This document shows positions 3,718 to 11,558 of a DNA stretch of 11,716 bases, piece by piece; positions within the stretch are counted from its first letter, which is position 1; each line of letters starts with the position of its first letter. Where the stretch lies: NCBI GenBank assembly GCA_002727535.1, contig PBXH01000051.1, positions 1 through 11,716 on the forward strand. The letters run 5' to 3'. Under the pieces are notes generated by a model. It made no database searches, was not told the origin of the DNA, and was given only the letters and a program-made list of their open reading frames with translations. Source of the DNA: Gammaproteobacteria bacterium (lineage in GTDB: Bacteria > Pseudomonadota > Gammaproteobacteria > Magnimaribacterales > TMED112). Both the position numbers and the translations under genes were made by a program.

Positions 3718-4421
3718 GCTTTATATCCTTTAAAGAAAGAGCTAACTGATTTTTTGGTTGGCTCTTTTTTTTCTGAGTAGAGAAACTTTTCAAGATCTTG
3801 AATTGTTGTCTTTATTGAGTAAAAATCTCTTCTTATTCTTTTAGATATAAATTCCATTACGTCATCAGAGAAACCAAGGTCGAGTTTATTAACTACAAAT
3901 TTTATGCAATCAAGCACTTCTTCATCTCCAATCTCATTAATATAAAAATAATTCATCTGTTTTAATCGTGAAATTAAATCAGGTAAGCAAGAAAGCTGAG
4001 AAGGATTTAGATTAGATGCAAAAATTAAATTAGTAGAAGTATCTTTACATTCATTTATTAAATTAAATGTTTGTATTTCCATTTCTTTATTAATTTTATC
4101 GATATTGTCTAGGCAAATTAGATCAAATTGATTGAGGTCAGTAAAATAATCTTTAGTTCCATCAAGTTTTGCTAGGTCAATATATATATTCGATTTCGAT
4201 GTATTTTCTTTATGATTTAAAAGAGAATTTAATAAAAATGTCTTTCCAGAACCATATATTCCGGAAATAAATATATCTTTTTTTTGTTCAGAATGTATTA
4301 GCTCTTTTAATTCATTTTTTAATACTTGATTTTTATTTGAGAAAAAGAAATTTTCTAAACTTGCATCATAATCGCGGCCAAAATCAAAATAAAGCTGATT
4401 CCTTGTGGTTATATTTTCCAT
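3714..4421 (-). CDS. hda: DnaA-homologue Hda (regulatory inactivation of DnaA)
   Basis: AAA+ protein that, bound to the DNA-loaded sliding clamp, stimulates ATP hydrolysis by DnaA and so prevents re-initiation. At 235 aa it fits the family (E. coli about 233). An N-terminal clamp-binding motif QLYFDF lies at residues 9-14. The Walker A GIYGSGKT is at 54-61, a full P-loop where E. coli Hda has GAGRS. The Walker B-like LICLDNID is at 101-108. The LPDLISRL box at 146-153 carries the arginine-finger Arg152. The C-terminal lid domain follows, and no DNA-binding domain IV is present, which separates it from DnaA itself. The ATG shares one base with the TAA of the upstream DUF2066 gene (TAATG), indicating translational coupling. 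Its last codons contain the sppA terminator on the other strand. Confidence 0.9.
   Translation of the reverse strand: MENITTRNQLYFDFGRDYDASLENFFFSNKNQVLKNELKELIHSEQKKDIFISGIYGSGKTFLLNSLLNHKENTSKSNIYIDLAKLDGTKDYFTDLNQFDLICLDNIDKINKEMEIQTFNLINECKDTSTNLIFASNLNPSQLSCLPDLISRLKQMNYFYINEIGDEEVLDCIKFVVNKLDLGFSDDVMEFISKRIRRDFYSIKTTIQDLEKFLYSEKKEPTKKSVSSFFKGYKA
3736..3772 (+). terminator. Rho-independent terminator of sppA, inside hda coding sequence
   Basis: AAAGAGCTAAC (3736-3746) pairs with GTTGGCTCTTT (3757-3767) as an 11-bp stem with one G-U wobble and a 10-nt loop, followed by eight T residues (3765-3772). It begins 19 bp after the sppA stop, yet lies wholly inside the C-terminal codons of the convergent hda gene. 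The reverse complement ends in TTTCTTT, so it may also act weakly for the hda transcript. Confidence 0.75.
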
Positions 4422-5359
4422 TAAATTGTAATACCACCTAATTTTTTAAAGAACTCTGTAGCTTTCACCTTATCTAAATAAGTCTCATATTCGATTTCAA
4501 TTCCTTCGCTGGATATCTTCTTAACTCTAAAATGCAAAATATCAGTACTTACTGATAAAGTTTCAATTAGTTCTGTTATCTCATCTAATGAAAGTTCTGT
4601 ATCAAAAGTTACCAAGTAATTGTTTTTAGAAATCTCATCATTAATCTTAAGCACTTCACCTAATATTTGATCTAATAAGAAGTTTTGAAACTCTATTTTA
4701 TCTTCGATATATATTGTGGAGGTTTTAGGAAATTTTATGCTCCATTTATTTAGATCAAATCTATCAATCAGCATTATTAGCCAATCGCCATTTTCAGATT
4801 CTCCTATTCTATTTAGCAATTCTTGTTGCTCGTAGCTAGATACTGGATAATCTTCCAAAAATTCGTAGTCTATTGCTATGTTTTGATTTAATGATGATAA
4901 AAGTCTTGAATCAATTAATTCATTTTGAAAAGCTTCACTTTCATAAATAAAAAGATTTGATTCCAAAAAAAATGAATCATTTGCACCTATAAAAATTTTT
5001 GCTTTACCTTGAAAACTTAAAAAAGGAATCGAATTAGCTAAGAAAAAATCTTCTATAGAATCTTTACTAAATTTTAGTTCTATTAATCTTTGATCATTGA
5101 ATTTTTTTATTTGATAACCAATGAAATGCTTGGTTGCCTCAAGGTTAATTTCACGCTCTAATACATAATTTTCATTTACACCATATTTTCTCATGATCTT
5201 TTTATCTGAATTCTGAATTATTTCTTCAATCTGATTAAGCTTGCTATAACTTTCATATAGCAAAATAAAATTATCTGAAATCTGTGCTGTAGAGTTGAAA
5301 CTCAATGAGATAAAAGACAGTATAATTGCAACTGAATTAAATATTTTCTTAGAAAACAT
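4421..5359 (-). CDS. DUF2066-family exported protein
   Basis: Predicted secreted or periplasmic protein of unknown function, 312 aa. The N-terminus has a typical Sec signal peptide (lysines, then a hydrophobic stretch over residues about 9-20) with a likely cleavage after FNSTA, near residue 25. No lipobox or later membrane segment is visible. I assign it to DUF2066 mainly from context: in many gammaproteobacteria, for example Pseudomonas, a DUF2066 gene sits between purM, divergently oriented, and hda, which is exactly the order here. Its length and exported nature fit, but no catalytic motif stands out. It is coupled to hda through a TAATG overlap, and its ATG lies only 20 bp from the purM start on the other strand. 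Confidence 0.75.
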   Translation of the reverse strand: MFSKKIFNSVAIILSFISLSFNSTAQISDNFILLYESYSKLNQIEEIIQNSDKKIMRKYGVNENYVLEREINLEATKHFIGYQIKKFNDQRLIELKFSKDSIEDFFLANSIPFLSFQGKAKIFIGANDSFFLESNLFIYESEAFQNELIDSRLLSSLNQNIAIDYEFLEDYPVSSYEQQELLNRIGESENGDWLIMLIDRFDLNKWSIKFPKTSTIYIEDKIEFQNFLLDQILGEVLKINDEISKNNYLVTFDTELSLDEITELIETLSVSTDILHFRVKKISSEGIEIEYETYLDKVKATEFFKKLGGITI

Positions 5360-6372: not shown

Positions 6373-6920
6373 AAATAGTAGTTTTCTTTTCAGGCACTGG
6401 AACAAACCTTGAATCAATTCTTAGAGAACAAAAAAATTATGATTATGAGGTGATAGGTGCTTTCACTAACAATCCAAATGCCAAAGGAATTGAAATATGT
6501 GATAAATATGAAACAGAATGCAAAATTATTGATCATAAAGATTTTAACTCTAGAGAAGATTTTGATAAAAACATATCTATTTTCTTAGATCAAATTAATC
6601 CTGATTACATAATACTAGCTGGCTATATGAGAATAATATCTAAATCATTAGTTGATGACTGGGAAGGACAAATAATTAATATTCACCCTTCATTGCTGCC
6701 AAAATATCCTGGATTGGATACACATAAAAAGGCACTTCAAGCAAAAGATAAGATGCATGGAACTACAATACACTACGTCATAAGTGAATTAGATGCTGGA
6801 CCAATAATAAGACAGGAGTCATTTGAAATTGAACTAAATGACACTATAGAAAGTCTTACTAATAAGGTTAAAGAAATAGAGAATAAAATTTACCCGGAAA
6901 CTATTTCAAATCTAATATGA
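6369..6920 (+). CDS. purN: Phosphoribosylglycinamide formyltransferase PurN
   Basis: GAR transformylase, the third step of purine synthesis, using 10-formyltetrahydrofolate as one-carbon donor. The phosphate-binding loop is SGTGTNLESIL near residues 8-18. The catalytic residues are all visible: Asn104 and His106 in INIHPSLLPKYPGLDTH, and Asp142 in SELDAGP. Family phrases VLAGFMRI-like (ILAGYMRI) and HGTTIHYV are also present. At 183 aa it is about 30 residues shorter than E. coli PurN (212 aa); the protein ends right after the helix YPETISNLI and lacks the C-terminal tail. The catalytic core is complete, so it should be active. It overlaps purM by four bases at its start, and its TGA overlaps the start of the DUF3108 gene. 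Confidence 0.96.
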   Translation: MKIVVFFSGTGTNLESILREQKNYDYEVIGAFTNNPNAKGIEICDKYETECKIIDHKDFNSREDFDKNISIFLDQINPDYIILAGYMRIISKSLVDDWEGQIINIHPSLLPKYPGLDTHKKALQAKDKMHGTTIHYVISELDAGPIIRQESFEIELNDTIESLTNKVKEIENKIYPETISNLI

Positions 6921-7600
6921 TGAAGAAGCCATTTTTTTTAATACTAATATCATTTTTTATCTCAGCTGAGGATTTAAAAAGCTGGAAAGCTGAATTTACA
7001 TTTTCTCATCATGAATTTGGTAATTTCAATATGAAAAGAGACTTTATAATCGAGCCTGACGATAAAATCTCTTCAAGTTTTGTACTCAGGCCTTTAATTG
7101 TTTTCAAATATTCTCAGAATTCATCTCTATCAATTGATGGAGGAAATGTTAGCTCCATATTAACTGAAGTTAAAAATAATGTGCCAGGTGCTGATCCCAG
7201 TTATTTTAAGGTCCAGTTTGAGAACAATTTAACTACATCAAAAGAGTTAAATTTTAGAATTGAAGAAAACCGGCCAATTCTTGATCAATTAGGCAGTGAT
7301 TTGCAAATGAGAGTAAATGCAAAAAACGATATCAAAAATTTTAAATTATTGGTTATCGATAATGATGAAGGGGATGTTGTGGAAAGAAGCTATAAAACTC
7401 TTGGTACTGAAATAGTTCAAACAGATTTTGGATCTTTTGAATGCATAAAAATTAGTGCAACAGCATTGGATGCTGGCAAGATTATTTATTTCATTTCACC
7501 TGAATTAGACTTCATGATAATTAAAAGTTTTGTTGAGCTAAGAAGTGGAGAAGTTAATTCGCTAATACTCAAAGATATGCCTAAGTTTTTGGCAAAGTGA
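6917..7600 (+). CDS. DUF3108-family exported protein
   Basis: Exported protein of unknown function, 227 aa. It has a short Sec signal peptide: two lysines, then [12 protein letters not shown], with cleavage probably after Ala17 before [10 protein letters not shown]. The body appears beta-rich and soluble, in keeping with DUF3108, a family usually found next to purN/purM in gammaproteobacteria, as here. Two start codons are possible: ATG at 6917 or the adjacent ATG at 6920, which makes a TGATG junction with the purN stop; they differ by one Met. It is the third gene of the purM-purN operon by overlap, though no functional link to purines is known to me. Its last 20 bp overlap the convergent dcd gene. 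Confidence 0.75.
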
Positions 7601-8147
7601 CACCTTTTTGTCCTTGATATTTTCCACCCCTATCTTTATAGCTTGTTAAACAAATTTCATCTGATTGAAAGAAAATCATTTGAGCAACTCCTTCATTAGC
7701 ATAAATTTTTGCAGGAAGATTGGTTGTGTTTGAAAACTCTAAGGTTACATGGCCTTCCCATTCTGGTTCAAGAGGAGTTACGTTCACTATAATTCCACAC
7801 CTAGCATAAGTTGATTTCCCTAGACACAAGGTAAGTACTGAACGCGGTATCTTAAAATATTCGACTGTCCTGGCTAAAGCAAATGAATTAGGAGGAATAA
7901 TACACTCATCAGCAATGAGATCGATAAAGCTTTTTTCATCAAAGTTTTTTGGATCTACTATGGAAGAATGTGTGTTTGTAAATATTTTAAATTCATTTGC
8001 ACATCTAACATCATATCCATAACTTGAAACTCCGTAAGAAACAATTTTTTCGCCATCAACTTCTCTTATTTGAGAGGCTTCAAAAGGTTTTATTAAATCA
8101 TTGTTTTTTGATTGTTCTATTATCCATTTGTCTGATTTTATAGTCAT
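7581..8147 (-). CDS. dcd: dCTP deaminase
   Basis: Deaminates dCTP to dUTP, feeding dTTP synthesis through dUTPase and thymidylate synthase. At 188 aa it closely follows the Pseudomonas-type Dcd rather than the 193-aa E. coli form, with long shared blocks such as [14 protein letters not shown] (37-50), [11 protein letters not shown] (64-74) and [14 protein letters not shown] (85-98). The active-site region has KSTYARCG (111-118) and the catalytic glutamate Glu137 in GHVTLEFSN. The C-terminal [11 protein letters not shown], which closes over the nucleotide, is present. Its ATG shares one base with the TAA of recR (TAATG), so it is the last gene of the minus-strand cluster. It converges on DUF3108 with a 20-bp overlap, and I see no clear terminator there, only a 4-bp hairpin. 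Confidence 0.97.
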
Positions 8148-8749
8148 TAATCTAGCTCTCTTCTTCCTTGTATTGCTCTACTTAAGGTTGTGTTATCAAC
8201 ATATTCCAATTCTCCTCCCATTGGAACACCATAAGCAATTCTTGATATTAATATATTTTCATTCTTGATCTGATCTTTTATATAGAATGATGTTGCATCA
8301 CCCTCTACAGTTGGACTTGTGGCGATGATTATTTCCTTTATATCTGAATTAATAATCCTATTGATTAACATAGGTATACCTAGATCTTCAGGTGTCACAC
8401 CATCTATTGGTGAAAGCCTTCCCATTAAGACAAAATATTTTCCTTTAAAACTTCCTGAGCTCTCTATTGCTATTACATCTGTAGGATTTTCAACGACACA
8501 TAAGAGACTTTTGTCTCTTTTTTCACTTGAGCAAATATCGCACTCTATTTCCTCTGTTAAATTTCGACAAGTAGAACAATTTCTAATCTTTTCCATGGAA
8601 TTAGAGATTAATCTTGCTAGATTGTTACCACCTTCTCTATTTTTTTCTAATAAATAGAATGCCATCCTTTGGGCTGATTTTTCACCAATGCCAGGAAGAA
8701 TTTTAAAAGATTGTATTAATTGAGCTAATAAACTATTTTCATTCTTCAT
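8147..8749 (-). CDS. recR: Recombination mediator protein RecR
   Basis: With RecO (and RecF) loads RecA onto SSB-coated single strands in gap repair. At 200 aa it equals the family length (E. coli 201). The helix-hairpin-helix [15 protein letters not shown] lies at residues 17-31. A four-cysteine zinc finger uses Cys58, Cys61, Cys70 and Cys73. The Toprim domain starts at [10 protein letters not shown] (82-91) and includes [10 protein letters not shown] (144-153) and the [12 protein letters not shown] segment (174-185). Its ATG lies inside the end of the DnaX tau reading frame (11-base overlap, 8739-8749), so recR translation is coupled to ribosomes that have read the tau frame. The ybaB gene usually found between dnaX and recR is absent. 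Confidence 0.97.
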
Positions 8750-9260
8750 GATCAGTAATAGTAATTCTATCCTCTGTTATTTCTTCGCCAAAATTTTCTT
8801 TAAAATTTACTAACAACTCACTACTTATTATCTCTTTTTTAAATTCTTGAATATCTATTTCTCTTTTTTTAATCCAATCTTGTGACGGTGTGTTATTAAC
8901 TGATTCAGTAGATTCAAATTCTATAGTGTAGCCTTCATACCCTAATCTTTTTAAGGACTCTATTAAGTTATTAATATCTCCTTCACTTATCCTTTCAACG
9001 AATAAATTAGTGCCCCTAAAGAAAAACTTTTGCTCCTCAACTTTTTGAAGTTGTAAGTTAGAAAAGAATGCTCTTGAAGGCCCAGAAAGATCAAGCCTAT
9101 TAAAAATTTCAAGCCAGTTGTCTGGAGTAATTTTAACGTCATGTTTTTCCTCGCTAGCTTCATCTAAAGGCTTTATAACCTCATTGCTTGAGGTTTCATT
9201 GAGCTCTTGCTTTTCAGTTTGTGGTTTTTCTAGTTCTTGTTTTTTAGCTAATTTGGGCTT
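8739..9260 (-). CDS. dnaX: DnaX tau-specific C-terminal part, in the +1 frame (needs frameshift)
   Basis: A 173-codon open stretch on the minus strand, in the +1 (equivalently -2) frame relative to upstream dnaX, ending at TGA 8739-8741. It has no ATG; its frame is closed by a TAA at 9267-9269 immediately upstream of the A10 run, so it can only be reached by a frame change inside that run. It encodes a lysine/glutamate-rich linker of about 45 residues, then a folded domain starting around DNWLEIFNRLDL and ending TPSQDWIKKR and FGEEITEDRITI. These correspond in position and pattern to E. coli tau domain V, which binds the polymerase alpha subunit (TPLEWRQ; FDAELDEESI). Joined to residues 1-351 it gives a 523-aa tau-like protein. 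Without it the replisome would lack its usual polymerase tether. Confidence 0.85.
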   Translation of the reverse strand, partial: KPKLAKKQELEKPQTEKQELNETSSNEVIKPLDEASEEKHDVKITPDNWLEIFNRLDLSGPSRAFFSNLQLQKVEEQKFFFRGTNLFVERISEGDINNLIESLKRLGYEGYTIEFESTESVNNTPSQDWIKKREIDIQEFKKEIISSELLVNFKENFGEEITEDRITITDHEE

Positions 9261-10311
9261 TTTTTTTTAATGAATTTTTTGAATCTTCAGAAAATGTAAG
9301 GCATCTAAGAACAGCTATATCAAAACAATCTCTTTTATTTCCAGTCTGCTTTGCATCTATCAAGCCATTGGTAAAGAATTGATAATACAAATGCAGATCT
9401 TGAGCAGACTCTTCATCAGATAGAAGCCCATCAATCATTTTGGAATGTAAAAAACTTAAAGCTCTATCAAAAAGTATGTCGTAGTTAACATCTAATGATT
9501 TGTATCGCCTTATTTCATTGATTACATCGTCTACGGAGTTCTCAAAGATGGCTTCGAATAATTTTGTTGTTGATGAAATATCTAATACGCCATGTAATTT
9601 TGATATCTCTGGTTCTGTAAGATTACCATCGCAGTGTGAGATTGCCTGATCTGCTAAAGTAAGTGAATCTCTAACTGATCCTTTAGCCAATTCTACCAAT
9701 AAGTCGACAGACTTATCATCAGTGGTAACTTCTTCATTGGTAAAAACTCTTTTTAAATTCTCAGCTATCAATTCATCGGATACTAATTTCAGATTAAATT
9801 GAAGACATCGAGAAACAATGGTCTTAGGAATTTTATTTGCTTCTGTCGTTGCAAGCATAAATATTACATGGCCTGGTGGTTCTTCTAATGTTTTTAGCAT
9901 TGCATTGAAGCTCTGCGAAGATAGCATATGAACTTCATCTATTAAATAAACCTTATACTTTCCTTGTGATGGCCTATATTGAACTGAGTCTAATAGCTCT
10001 CTCATGTCATCAACGCCTGTCCTAGAAGCAGCATCAATTTCAATGAGATCTAAGTGAGAATTTTTTTGTACTTCTACACAATTATTGCAGACATTGCAGG
10101 TTTCACCTTTTTCAACATCATAATTTGTACAGTTTAGGGCCTTTGCAAATAATCGGCCCAACGTAGTTTTACCTACCCCTCTTGTTCCAGAAAATATATA
10201 CCCATTATGAAAAGATTGATTTTTTATTATGTTTCTTAAAGCAATAACAGTATTTTCCTGTCCTATTACTTCGGAAAATGAGTTTGGTCTATATTTATTA
10301 GCTAAAGCCAT
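9244..10311 (-). CDS. dnaX: DNA polymerase III subunit gamma/tau, 0-frame product (domains I-III)
   Basis: ATPase of the clamp loader that opens and places the beta clamp on DNA. The 0 frame gives 355 aa: RFC box NKYRPNSFSEVIGQ (5-18), Walker A GTRGVGKT (42-49), zinc-binding cysteines 61, 72, 75 and 78, Walker B LIDEVHML (123-130), MLKTLEEPP (138-146), and the SRC motif 167-169 with the arginine finger. The domain III collar continues to about 345. It then runs through a string of lysines encoded by A10 and stops after KAQIS. This is a gamma-like protein ending at the domain III/IV boundary, much shorter than E. coli tau (643 aa) or gamma (431 aa). The tau part continues downstream in another frame. 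Its ATG shares one base with the recX stop (TAATG). Confidence 0.95.
   Translation of the reverse strand: MALANKYRPNSFSEVIGQENTVIALRNIIKNQSFHNGYIFSGTRGVGKTTLGRLFAKALNCTNYDVEKGETCNVCNNCVEVQKNSHLDLIEIDAASRTGVDDMRELLDSVQYRPSQGKYKVYLIDEVHMLSSQSFNAMLKTLEEPPGHVIFMLATTEANKIPKTIVSRCLQFNLKLVSDELIAENLKRVFTNEEVTTDDKSVDLLVELAKGSVRDSLTLADQAISHCDGNLTEPEISKLHGVLDISSTTKLFEAIFENSVDDVINEIRRYKSLDVNYDILFDRALSFLHSKMIDGLLSDEESAQDLHLYYQFFTNGLIDAKQTGNKRDCFDIAVLRCLTFSEDSKNSLKKKAQIS
9259..9268 (-). other. A10 slippery run at the dnaX frame junction
   Basis: Ten consecutive A on the minus strand, in the context TTA-AAA-AAA-AAA-GCC of the 0 frame. The 0 frame stops at 9244-9246, four codons after the run. The -1 frame stops at once (AGC-CCA-AAT-TAG). 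Only +1/-2 opens the tau tail. Loss of one A (or gain of two) in the mRNA would do the same, so transcriptional slippage fits better than the -1 ribosomal slip of E. coli dnaX. A homopolymer sequencing error (true length nine) is the simplest alternative. Confidence 0.7.
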
Positions 10312-10745
10312 TAGTCGTATTCTTTTAGAGCGCTTTTTATTATTTCATAACTAAAACCTCTATAGGCTAAAAATCTTAAAATCTTTTCTTTTTCTTTAAA
10401 ATTTATCTCTTTATCTTGTCTTTTTTTATCAAATTGATCTTTGCATATGGATTGCCAGTCAATGTCTAGTGAATTTATATCGTAGAGGTCGGATGAAATT
10501 CCTTTTTTTGCTAAATATTGAGCTATGTAAGATGGGCCGTATCCTGATTGGGCTTTTGATTTGATAAATAATGCAGCAAATCTTTCATCATCAATAAAAT
10601 TTGATGCTTTCAGTTTTTCAATAAGCTCATTTAAATCTTTTTCATCAGGCTCAAACTTTTTTAATTTAGTTTTAAGCTCATAAGAAGAATGTTCTCTTCT
10701 CGAGAGAATATCTAAAGCTTTATTCCAAAGGTTTACTGAATCCAA
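10311..10745 (-). CDS. recX: RecX-family regulatory protein
   Basis: RecX binds RecA filaments and limits their growth and strand exchange. At 144 aa it is near family size (E. coli 166). The three-helix repeat pattern is recognisable: ALDILSRREHSSYELKTKL (9-27), NFIDDERFAALFIKSKAQSGYGPSYIAQYLAKKGI (49-83) and the C-terminal KEKILRFLAYRGFSYEIIKSAL, matching the E. coli segments RDHSEQELRRKL, YLDDSRFVARFI, GYGPARIRQEL and KIQRFLLYRGY. The usual neighbour recA is not here; instead recX lies 4 bp after slyB and overlaps dnaX by one base. It therefore appears co-transcribed with clamp-loader and recombination genes, which may tune RecA control with replication; that is inference. Confidence 0.9.
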   Translation of the reverse strand: MDSVNLWNKALDILSRREHSSYELKTKLKKFEPDEKDLNELIEKLKASNFIDDERFAALFIKSKAQSGYGPSYIAQYLAKKGISSDLYDINSLDIDWQSICKDQFDKKRQDKEINFKEKEKILRFLAYRGFSYEIIKSALKEYD

Positions 10746-11480: not shown

Positions 11481-11542
11481 ATGTAACCTATGCTACTCAT
11501 TATATTAAAATAAATCAATTAAAAGAGTAGTAAAGGTTACAT
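11481..11542. repeat. 18-bp inverted repeat, putative operator between regulator and hsp20
   Basis: The left arm ATGTAACCTATGCTACTC (11481-11498) is the inverted complement of the right arm GAGTAGTAAAGGTTACAT (11525-11542) at 16 of 18 positions, with a 26-bp AT-rich centre. The left arm itself is roughly symmetric (GTAACCTATGCTAC, 10 of 14). The arms flank TATAAT of the regulator's strand, so a bound protein would cover its -35 and start region. The best candidate ligand is the adjacent XRE protein; this is inference. Confidence 0.65.
11499..11504 (-). promoter_or_regulatory. -10 element of the regulator-slyB-recX-dnaX-recR-dcd cluster
   Basis: A perfect TATAAT on the minus strand, 19 bp before the preferred ATG of the regulator gene. 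The -35 position (about 11522-11528) holds no good match and overlaps the right operator arm. The predicted start of transcription, near 11492, falls in the left arm. A weak -35 together with paired operators fits a regulated promoter. Confidence 0.45.
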
Positions 11543-11558
11543 TTAGATGAAAAAGTTC

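Follow-up and report, generated by a model that had tools for sequence, protein, structure and literature searches.

In the organism studied here, which is taken as a SAR86 bacterium, dnaX is split at a run of ten A residues. The unshifted reading of the gene ends shortly after the run and gives a gamma-like product, while the tau-specific part continues in another frame that can be entered only within the run. Comparison across the SAR86 order indicates that the run is very probably a programmed transcriptional-slippage site of the Thermus type, kept at the boundary between domains III and IV. For this genome in particular, the best explanation, which we favor with modest confidence, is that such a site is combined with a gamma product templated by the ten A residues. 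For the order as a whole, we propose more tentatively that the slippage site is kept in every sampled genus and that its register flips occasionally by one base, in at most three genomes from three genera and in both directions. We infer that slippage itself takes place in SAR86 and that both gamma and tau are produced. The interpretation of the locus given by a first-pass annotation is partly supported.

Organization of the dnaX locus

The window, that is, the whole stretch of 11,716 nucleotides that was analysed, is an entire contig (C51) of a 714,531-base MAG (53 contigs, 75.8% complete). On its minus strand, recX, dnaX and recR, all matched by profiles, are followed by a gene that we take to be dcd. 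The features of the locus are collected in Table 1.

Table 1. Features of the dnaX region, with positions counted in the window
Feature	Coordinates	Strand	Remarks
recX	10311..10745	minus	directly upstream of dnaX; its stop shares one base with the dnaX start
dnaX, unshifted ORF (gamma-like product)	10311-9244	minus	355 aa; domains I-III followed by KKKAQIS
TAA shutting the tau-tail frame	9267..9269	minus	immediately upstream
A10 run, putative slippage site	9268-9259	minus (T10 on the plus strand)	exactly ten A; position conserved across SAR86 dnaX
tau C-terminal frame, domain IV/V-like	8739..9266	minus	175 codons and a stop (8739-8741); no Met
Third-frame stop TAG	9248..9250	minus	KKSPN, then the stop, which lies three codons beyond the run; frame used by mRNA with an eleventh A
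Gamma-frame stop TAA	9244..9246	minus	ends the unshifted ORF
recR	8147..8749	minus	its first 11 nt lie within the end of the tau frame

The unshifted frame ends in NSLKKKAQIS, with four codons between the run and the stop. Its product matches TIGR02397 with 381.7 bits (cut-off 250), and the Pfam models DNA_pol3_delta2, lid and domain III are all above their cut-offs. The domain III match ends at residue 340. The split falls at the domain III/IV boundary, as had been proposed. The tau frame is open from 9266 to 8742, with 172 of its codons beyond the run. Its product aligns to positions 492-653 of the 655 in NF005942 with E 3.9e-9, its 36 bits being far below the cut-off of 613 that applies to the whole protein, and has no match in Pfam. 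The alignment of the tail reaches the last residue of the tau of related genomes; with the weak model match and this alignment taken together, the tau-specific C-terminal part of dnaX is present in the window.

Because a TAA closes the tau frame just upstream, the switch of frame must fall inside the run. An independent translation start for the tail (P0001) was rejected, as the tail lacks a Met and no ATG, GTG or TTG ORF was listed there among ORFs of at least 80 aa. An mRNA with one extra A would be read in the third frame and would also give a gamma-like product. The 355-codon frame and its stop, the startless tail and the immediate stop of the -1 frame were all re-read from the sequence, and they are as the first-pass annotation described them. 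Elsewhere in the window, two ORFs were given no function: 4421-5359, which sits between what we take to be hda-like and purM-like genes, and 6917-7600, which follows a presumably purN-like gene.

The A run across the SAR86 order

A dnaX match at E 1e-40 or better was found in 171 of 203 genomes of the order, of which 150 were fetched; in two of these the contig stops short of the site, leaving 148 genes that were read, from 19 genera and four families. The run was taken as the longest A run within a stretch of 60-75 codons, and the run so chosen begins 299-330 codons after the ATPase motif. A run of 8-11 A is present at the site in all 148 genes and is at least nine long in 147 of them (A10 in 99, A9 in 43, A11 in five and A8 in one). 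Its codon phase differs mostly by family: it is phase 2 in 15 of 17 genes of the window's genus, phase 0 in 18 of 18 in family f2, and phase 1 in 93 of 95 in family f3 and in 16 of 18 in family f4. Since all three phases are used, what is kept is the nucleotides and not the residues. Consistent with this, when the codons of 144 intact genes were resampled synonymously, a null that preserves the Lys-rich protein, a run of A9 or more near the site was expected in 65.2 genes and observed in all 144.

Both non-tau frames close within eight codons past the run in 119 of 124 intact genes, whereas the background for such double closure in the same genes is 38% at tail positions and 37% at head positions. 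Against synonymous resampling, double closure was observed in 137 of 144 genes (75.75 expected). The SAR86 genomes are related and non-independent, and these figures are given as counts, not as probabilities.

The tau frame itself is intact in 144 of the 148 genes, which shows that the tau register is under selection. In the window's genus, 17 of 21 genomes have a dnaX match, and in 16 of the 17, all but the window, the gene is one open frame of 524-545 aa. Short open dnaX frames in two further genomes (G172 and G054) were rejected as breaks, as they end at contig edges. In another genome (G124; L115, G124:C1:1017272-1019277), A10 is intact and the frame breaks slightly downstream, while close kin are unbroken. 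This gene was not counted as an inversion, as slippage at the run cannot bridge a break that lies downstream of it.

Long runs are otherwise scarce in this genome. Of the 19 A/T runs of at least nine in the 714,531-base MAG, none but that in dnaX was found to reach ten. In the coding sequence of 21 of its contigs (260,360 b), A9 or more was observed five times, against about 31 expected from synonymous shuffling, and T9 or more once, against about 14. By contrast, coding runs of A6-A8 are at or above the shuffle expectation; T8 is below it (18 against 29.7). A close relative, G012, has nine coding A runs of at least nine where about 44 are expected, and two T runs where about 21 are. Coding runs of at least nine are thus far below shuffles, which argues that such runs are avoided, as expected where the polymerase slips on them.

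Genomes in which gamma is templated

Gamma is templated in three of the 148 genomes: the window (A10), G093 (A11) and G137 (A8). In each, the run differs by one base from that of the closest kin. The two closest relatives of the window, G012 and G010 (93.6% aa identity over 357 aa), have A9 and one continuous tau frame; the closest kin of G093 (97.4% identical) have A10, and those of G137 (94.9%) have A9, the tail frame being open in both off-frame genes. All three are single genomes with no replicates from the same species. The inverted layout is not shared by close relatives of the window, and the other two genomes belong to other genera. A neutral run length would put about two thirds of the genes off-frame, and only three of 148 are; thus, the tau-templated length is strongly preferred.

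The tails of these genes look constrained, to judge from substitution ratios, slightly less in the window and G093 comparisons than between intact kin. For the window, tail dN/dS is 0.28 and 0.22 to its two closest kin and 0.21 between those kin; it is 0.20-0.24 for G093 (0.18 for intact kin in its group) and 0.20 for G137. The earlier claim that the tail is not decaying is in line with these ratios. Nevertheless, the run-length changes look recent, and this makes the test a weak one. A further point against the favored reading is that the tail of the window has diverged much more than its head: the tail is 62-64% identical to those of its kin with dS of 0.8-1.1, while the head is 92.5% identical with dS of 0.5-0.7; the tails of the two kin are 89.5% alike. 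A separate alignment of the tail to the tau of kin gave 65% identity over 159 aa.

Proposed mechanism

In the mechanism that we propose, RNA polymerase would slip on the run and produce mRNAs with differing numbers of A. Ordinary translation of this mixture would then give gamma from two registers, which stop within a few codons, and tau from the third. In most SAR86 genomes, the templated length would give tau and the slipped mRNAs gamma. In the window, mRNAs with the templated ten A, and also those with eleven, would give gamma, and those with nine or twelve would give tau. In published cases, slippage on A runs mostly takes the form of insertion (PMC5574713, PMC4256274). If insertions dominate, tau from A10, which takes one fewer or two more A, should be less efficient than the reverse. 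Tau is probably the minor product in this genome, and the inversion may therefore come at a cost.

Alternative explanations

That the tenth A is truly in the chromosome seems rather likely. The main competing view is that assembly or consensus building introduced one base too many, or that the MAG caught a variant of a minority strain; in either case the organism has A9, templates tau and makes gamma by slippage; we consider this a serious but less probable account. The first-pass annotation had named nine A residues in relatives as the observation that would speak against its reading. Nine A in a single tau frame is indeed what G012 and G010 carry, but as these are other species, the observation weakens the claim for this genome without deciding it. 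The state of the MAG also lends weight to an error, since it resembles a masked consensus, with 2,292 N in 248,644 b of 20 contigs, and two of its contigs are 99.8% alike over 3,010 b; it may partly be a strain consensus. These near-duplicates (L261, G000:C25 near 2583, and L262, G000:C27 near 13358) could be strain redundancy or a true repeat. Errors are expected at the longest run, where only three of 148 genomes are off-frame, and a second frame split relative to G012 occurs at an N-rich place (L232, G000:C18, about 11535-11550). The window, on the other hand, contains no N. When 401 ORFs of G012 were compared with a sample of the genome, 109 ORF-contig pairs of at least 60% identity, covering 31,181 aligned residues, had two frame splits, namely dnaX and the one among N. 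Apart from dnaX, the MAG has 18 runs, all of nine; seven lie well inside one open frame and, as read from the table, the other 11 show no split with at least 50 codons on each side, L258, whose frames are shorter, being less clear. Runs of ten or more A/T were found at 67 places in the SAR86 genomes examined, mostly in family f4. Of these, 19 are non-dnaX runs inside one open frame, eight are dnaX (three judged by a 131-codon tail alone), 37 belong to neither class and three were flagged as splits. Two of the flagged places were rejected as gene boundaries, L335 because the run precedes an ORF with its own ATG and L356 because one gene ends there and the GTG that starts another overlaps the run; the third is L350. 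The difference between three of 148 off-frame at the dnaX site and none clear elsewhere is not significant, the numbers being too small to distinguish three of 148 from zero. A chimeric contig joined at the run was also considered and rejected, as no join is seen there and the drop in identity to kin begins at least about 150 nt upstream. Identity to G012 and G010 is 0.91 and 0.90 at 9712-9563, and 0.79 and 0.76 at 9562-9413; it is lowest just past the run (0.70 at 9262-9127, with gaps), so that the low point adjoins the run, and is about 0.8 into recR.

The second product could in principle come from ribosomal and not transcriptional frameshifting, which we regard as very unlikely. Ribosomes also slip on poly-A, and kin with A9 followed by G carry the E. 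coli heptamer A AAA AAG in frame. Nevertheless, tau in the window needs a +1 or -2 shift and not the -1 shift of E. coli, after which a ribosome would meet a stop three codons beyond the run; the window does not conform to an E. coli-type -1 site, and the direction is wrong for tau. As had been claimed, stimulators of that type are not seen. The 60 nt downstream of the run in the window fold at -1.7 kcal/mol (z 0.61 against shuffles), and across SAR86 this stretch is no more stable than shuffles (mean z -0.21 in 126 of the first 128 genes); taken by itself, this comparison discriminates poorly, as even 29 sites of the known type, with A AAA AAG, average only z -0.63. Upstream SD-like 4-mers are present in 26 of 126 SAR86 genes and in 21 of the 29 other gammaproteobacterial dnaX genes with A AAA AAG, two groups that differ in base composition. 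Moreover, the off-frame genomes need shifts in opposite directions (the window and G093 against G137), and the section of Antonov et al. on such genes (PMC3711429) predicts transcriptional slippage except where all members of a cluster shift in one direction. Transcriptional slippage on poly-A, which the first-pass annotation preferred, still offers the best mechanism. The last alternative, a true recent loss of the frame, with tau lost or nearly so and the tail starting to decay, is highly improbable. It would fit a template whose frame is broken, where tau would depend on slipped transcripts, and a tail that has diverged from kin more than the head. However, the tail is stop-free over 175 codons and aligned to the last residue of the tau of kin, its dN/dS of 0.22-0.28 is near the 0.21 of intact kin, and the break sits at the conserved run, in contrast to the unbridgeable break downstream of an intact A10 in G124. 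Tau is also essential in E. coli, which counts against its loss.

Comparison with known systems

The proposed slippage at a dnaX site kept across SAR86, with gamma templated in the window, has close parallels. In Thermus, slippage on nine A produces three mRNA registers, of which one gives tau and two stop at once and give gamma (PMC1088944, in the part concerned with dnaX). Like T. thermophilus dnaX (Larsen et al. 2000, as described in PMC1088944 and PMC5009743), most SAR86 genes have nearby stops in both other frames and a run of this kind, A9 in Thermus; the conserved run reaches at least nine A in 147 of 148 SAR86 genes, and the stops in the window lie four and three codons past the run. 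Tau is templated in Thermus and in most SAR86, whereas gamma is templated in the window, so that in this respect the window departs from the Thermus type. Slippage has been demonstrated in Thermus; for SAR86, it is deduced from sequence. E. coli dnaX likewise encodes gamma and tau in one gene, and the two products part in the same region, past domain III, but there by -1 ribosomal frameshifting, with A AAA AAG, an SD and a stem-loop.

The inverted layout had been considered unpublished; it is not new. The dnaX section of Antonov et al. 2013 (PMC3711429) describes 17 two-ORF dnaX genes from complete genomes of 12 genera that need recoding for tau, including nine with ten A, and the relevant text of Atkins et al. 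2016 (PMC5009743) states that one nucleotide can reverse the roles of the products, naming dnaX. The window is a gene of this kind, with ORFs that overlap at poly-A and tau obtainable only by recoding. The likeness extends to a templated gamma, to A10 and to transcriptional slippage as the proposed mechanism. That section names three chlorobial species, but not its nine A10 cases. Unlike that set, the window has close kin that template tau, and its inversion is a one-base difference between species.

Two other cases are related more distantly. In Blochmannia dnaX, slippage is believed to repair a poly-A indel and so restore tau (the portion of PMC3017870 on this gene); in contrast to the run in the window, that indel is in the part that encodes tau only, beyond the site of ribosomal frameshifting to gamma. 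In Citrobacter rodentium, tssM1 is interrupted at A11, and slippage yields short and full-length forms that are both used (PMC4256274, in its passages on tssM1). This is another gene, and slippage there was shown by cDNA mass and protein assays, whereas the case for SAR86 is built on sequence comparison. In the open-licence papers searched, neither an order-wide dnaX site in SAR86 nor scattered one-base flips were found.

Implications

SAR86 bacteria are among the abundant bacteria of the surface ocean and are mostly uncultured. If the site works as argued, an entire order with small genomes would be actively retaining gamma. This would bear on the long-standing question of gamma's function, the mechanism having been shown in Thermus and predicted in a few other bacteria. 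Occasional one-base flips to a templated gamma, if real, would be a natural demonstration that a free-living ocean bacterium tolerates a broken frame in a replisome gene by means of efficient slippage, and the off-frame relatives could reveal the amount of slippage that is required for life. In addition, the gene would be misread by gene finders that terminate dnaX at the run and by pipelines that repair frames.

Runs of A9 or A10 after domain III also occur, at varied positions and phases, in 12 of 69 other gammaproteobacterial dnaX loci, from records not named SAR86 (L046, L056, L061, L065, L069, L085, L090, L091, L094, L097, L102 and L110), and some of these may be slippage sites too.
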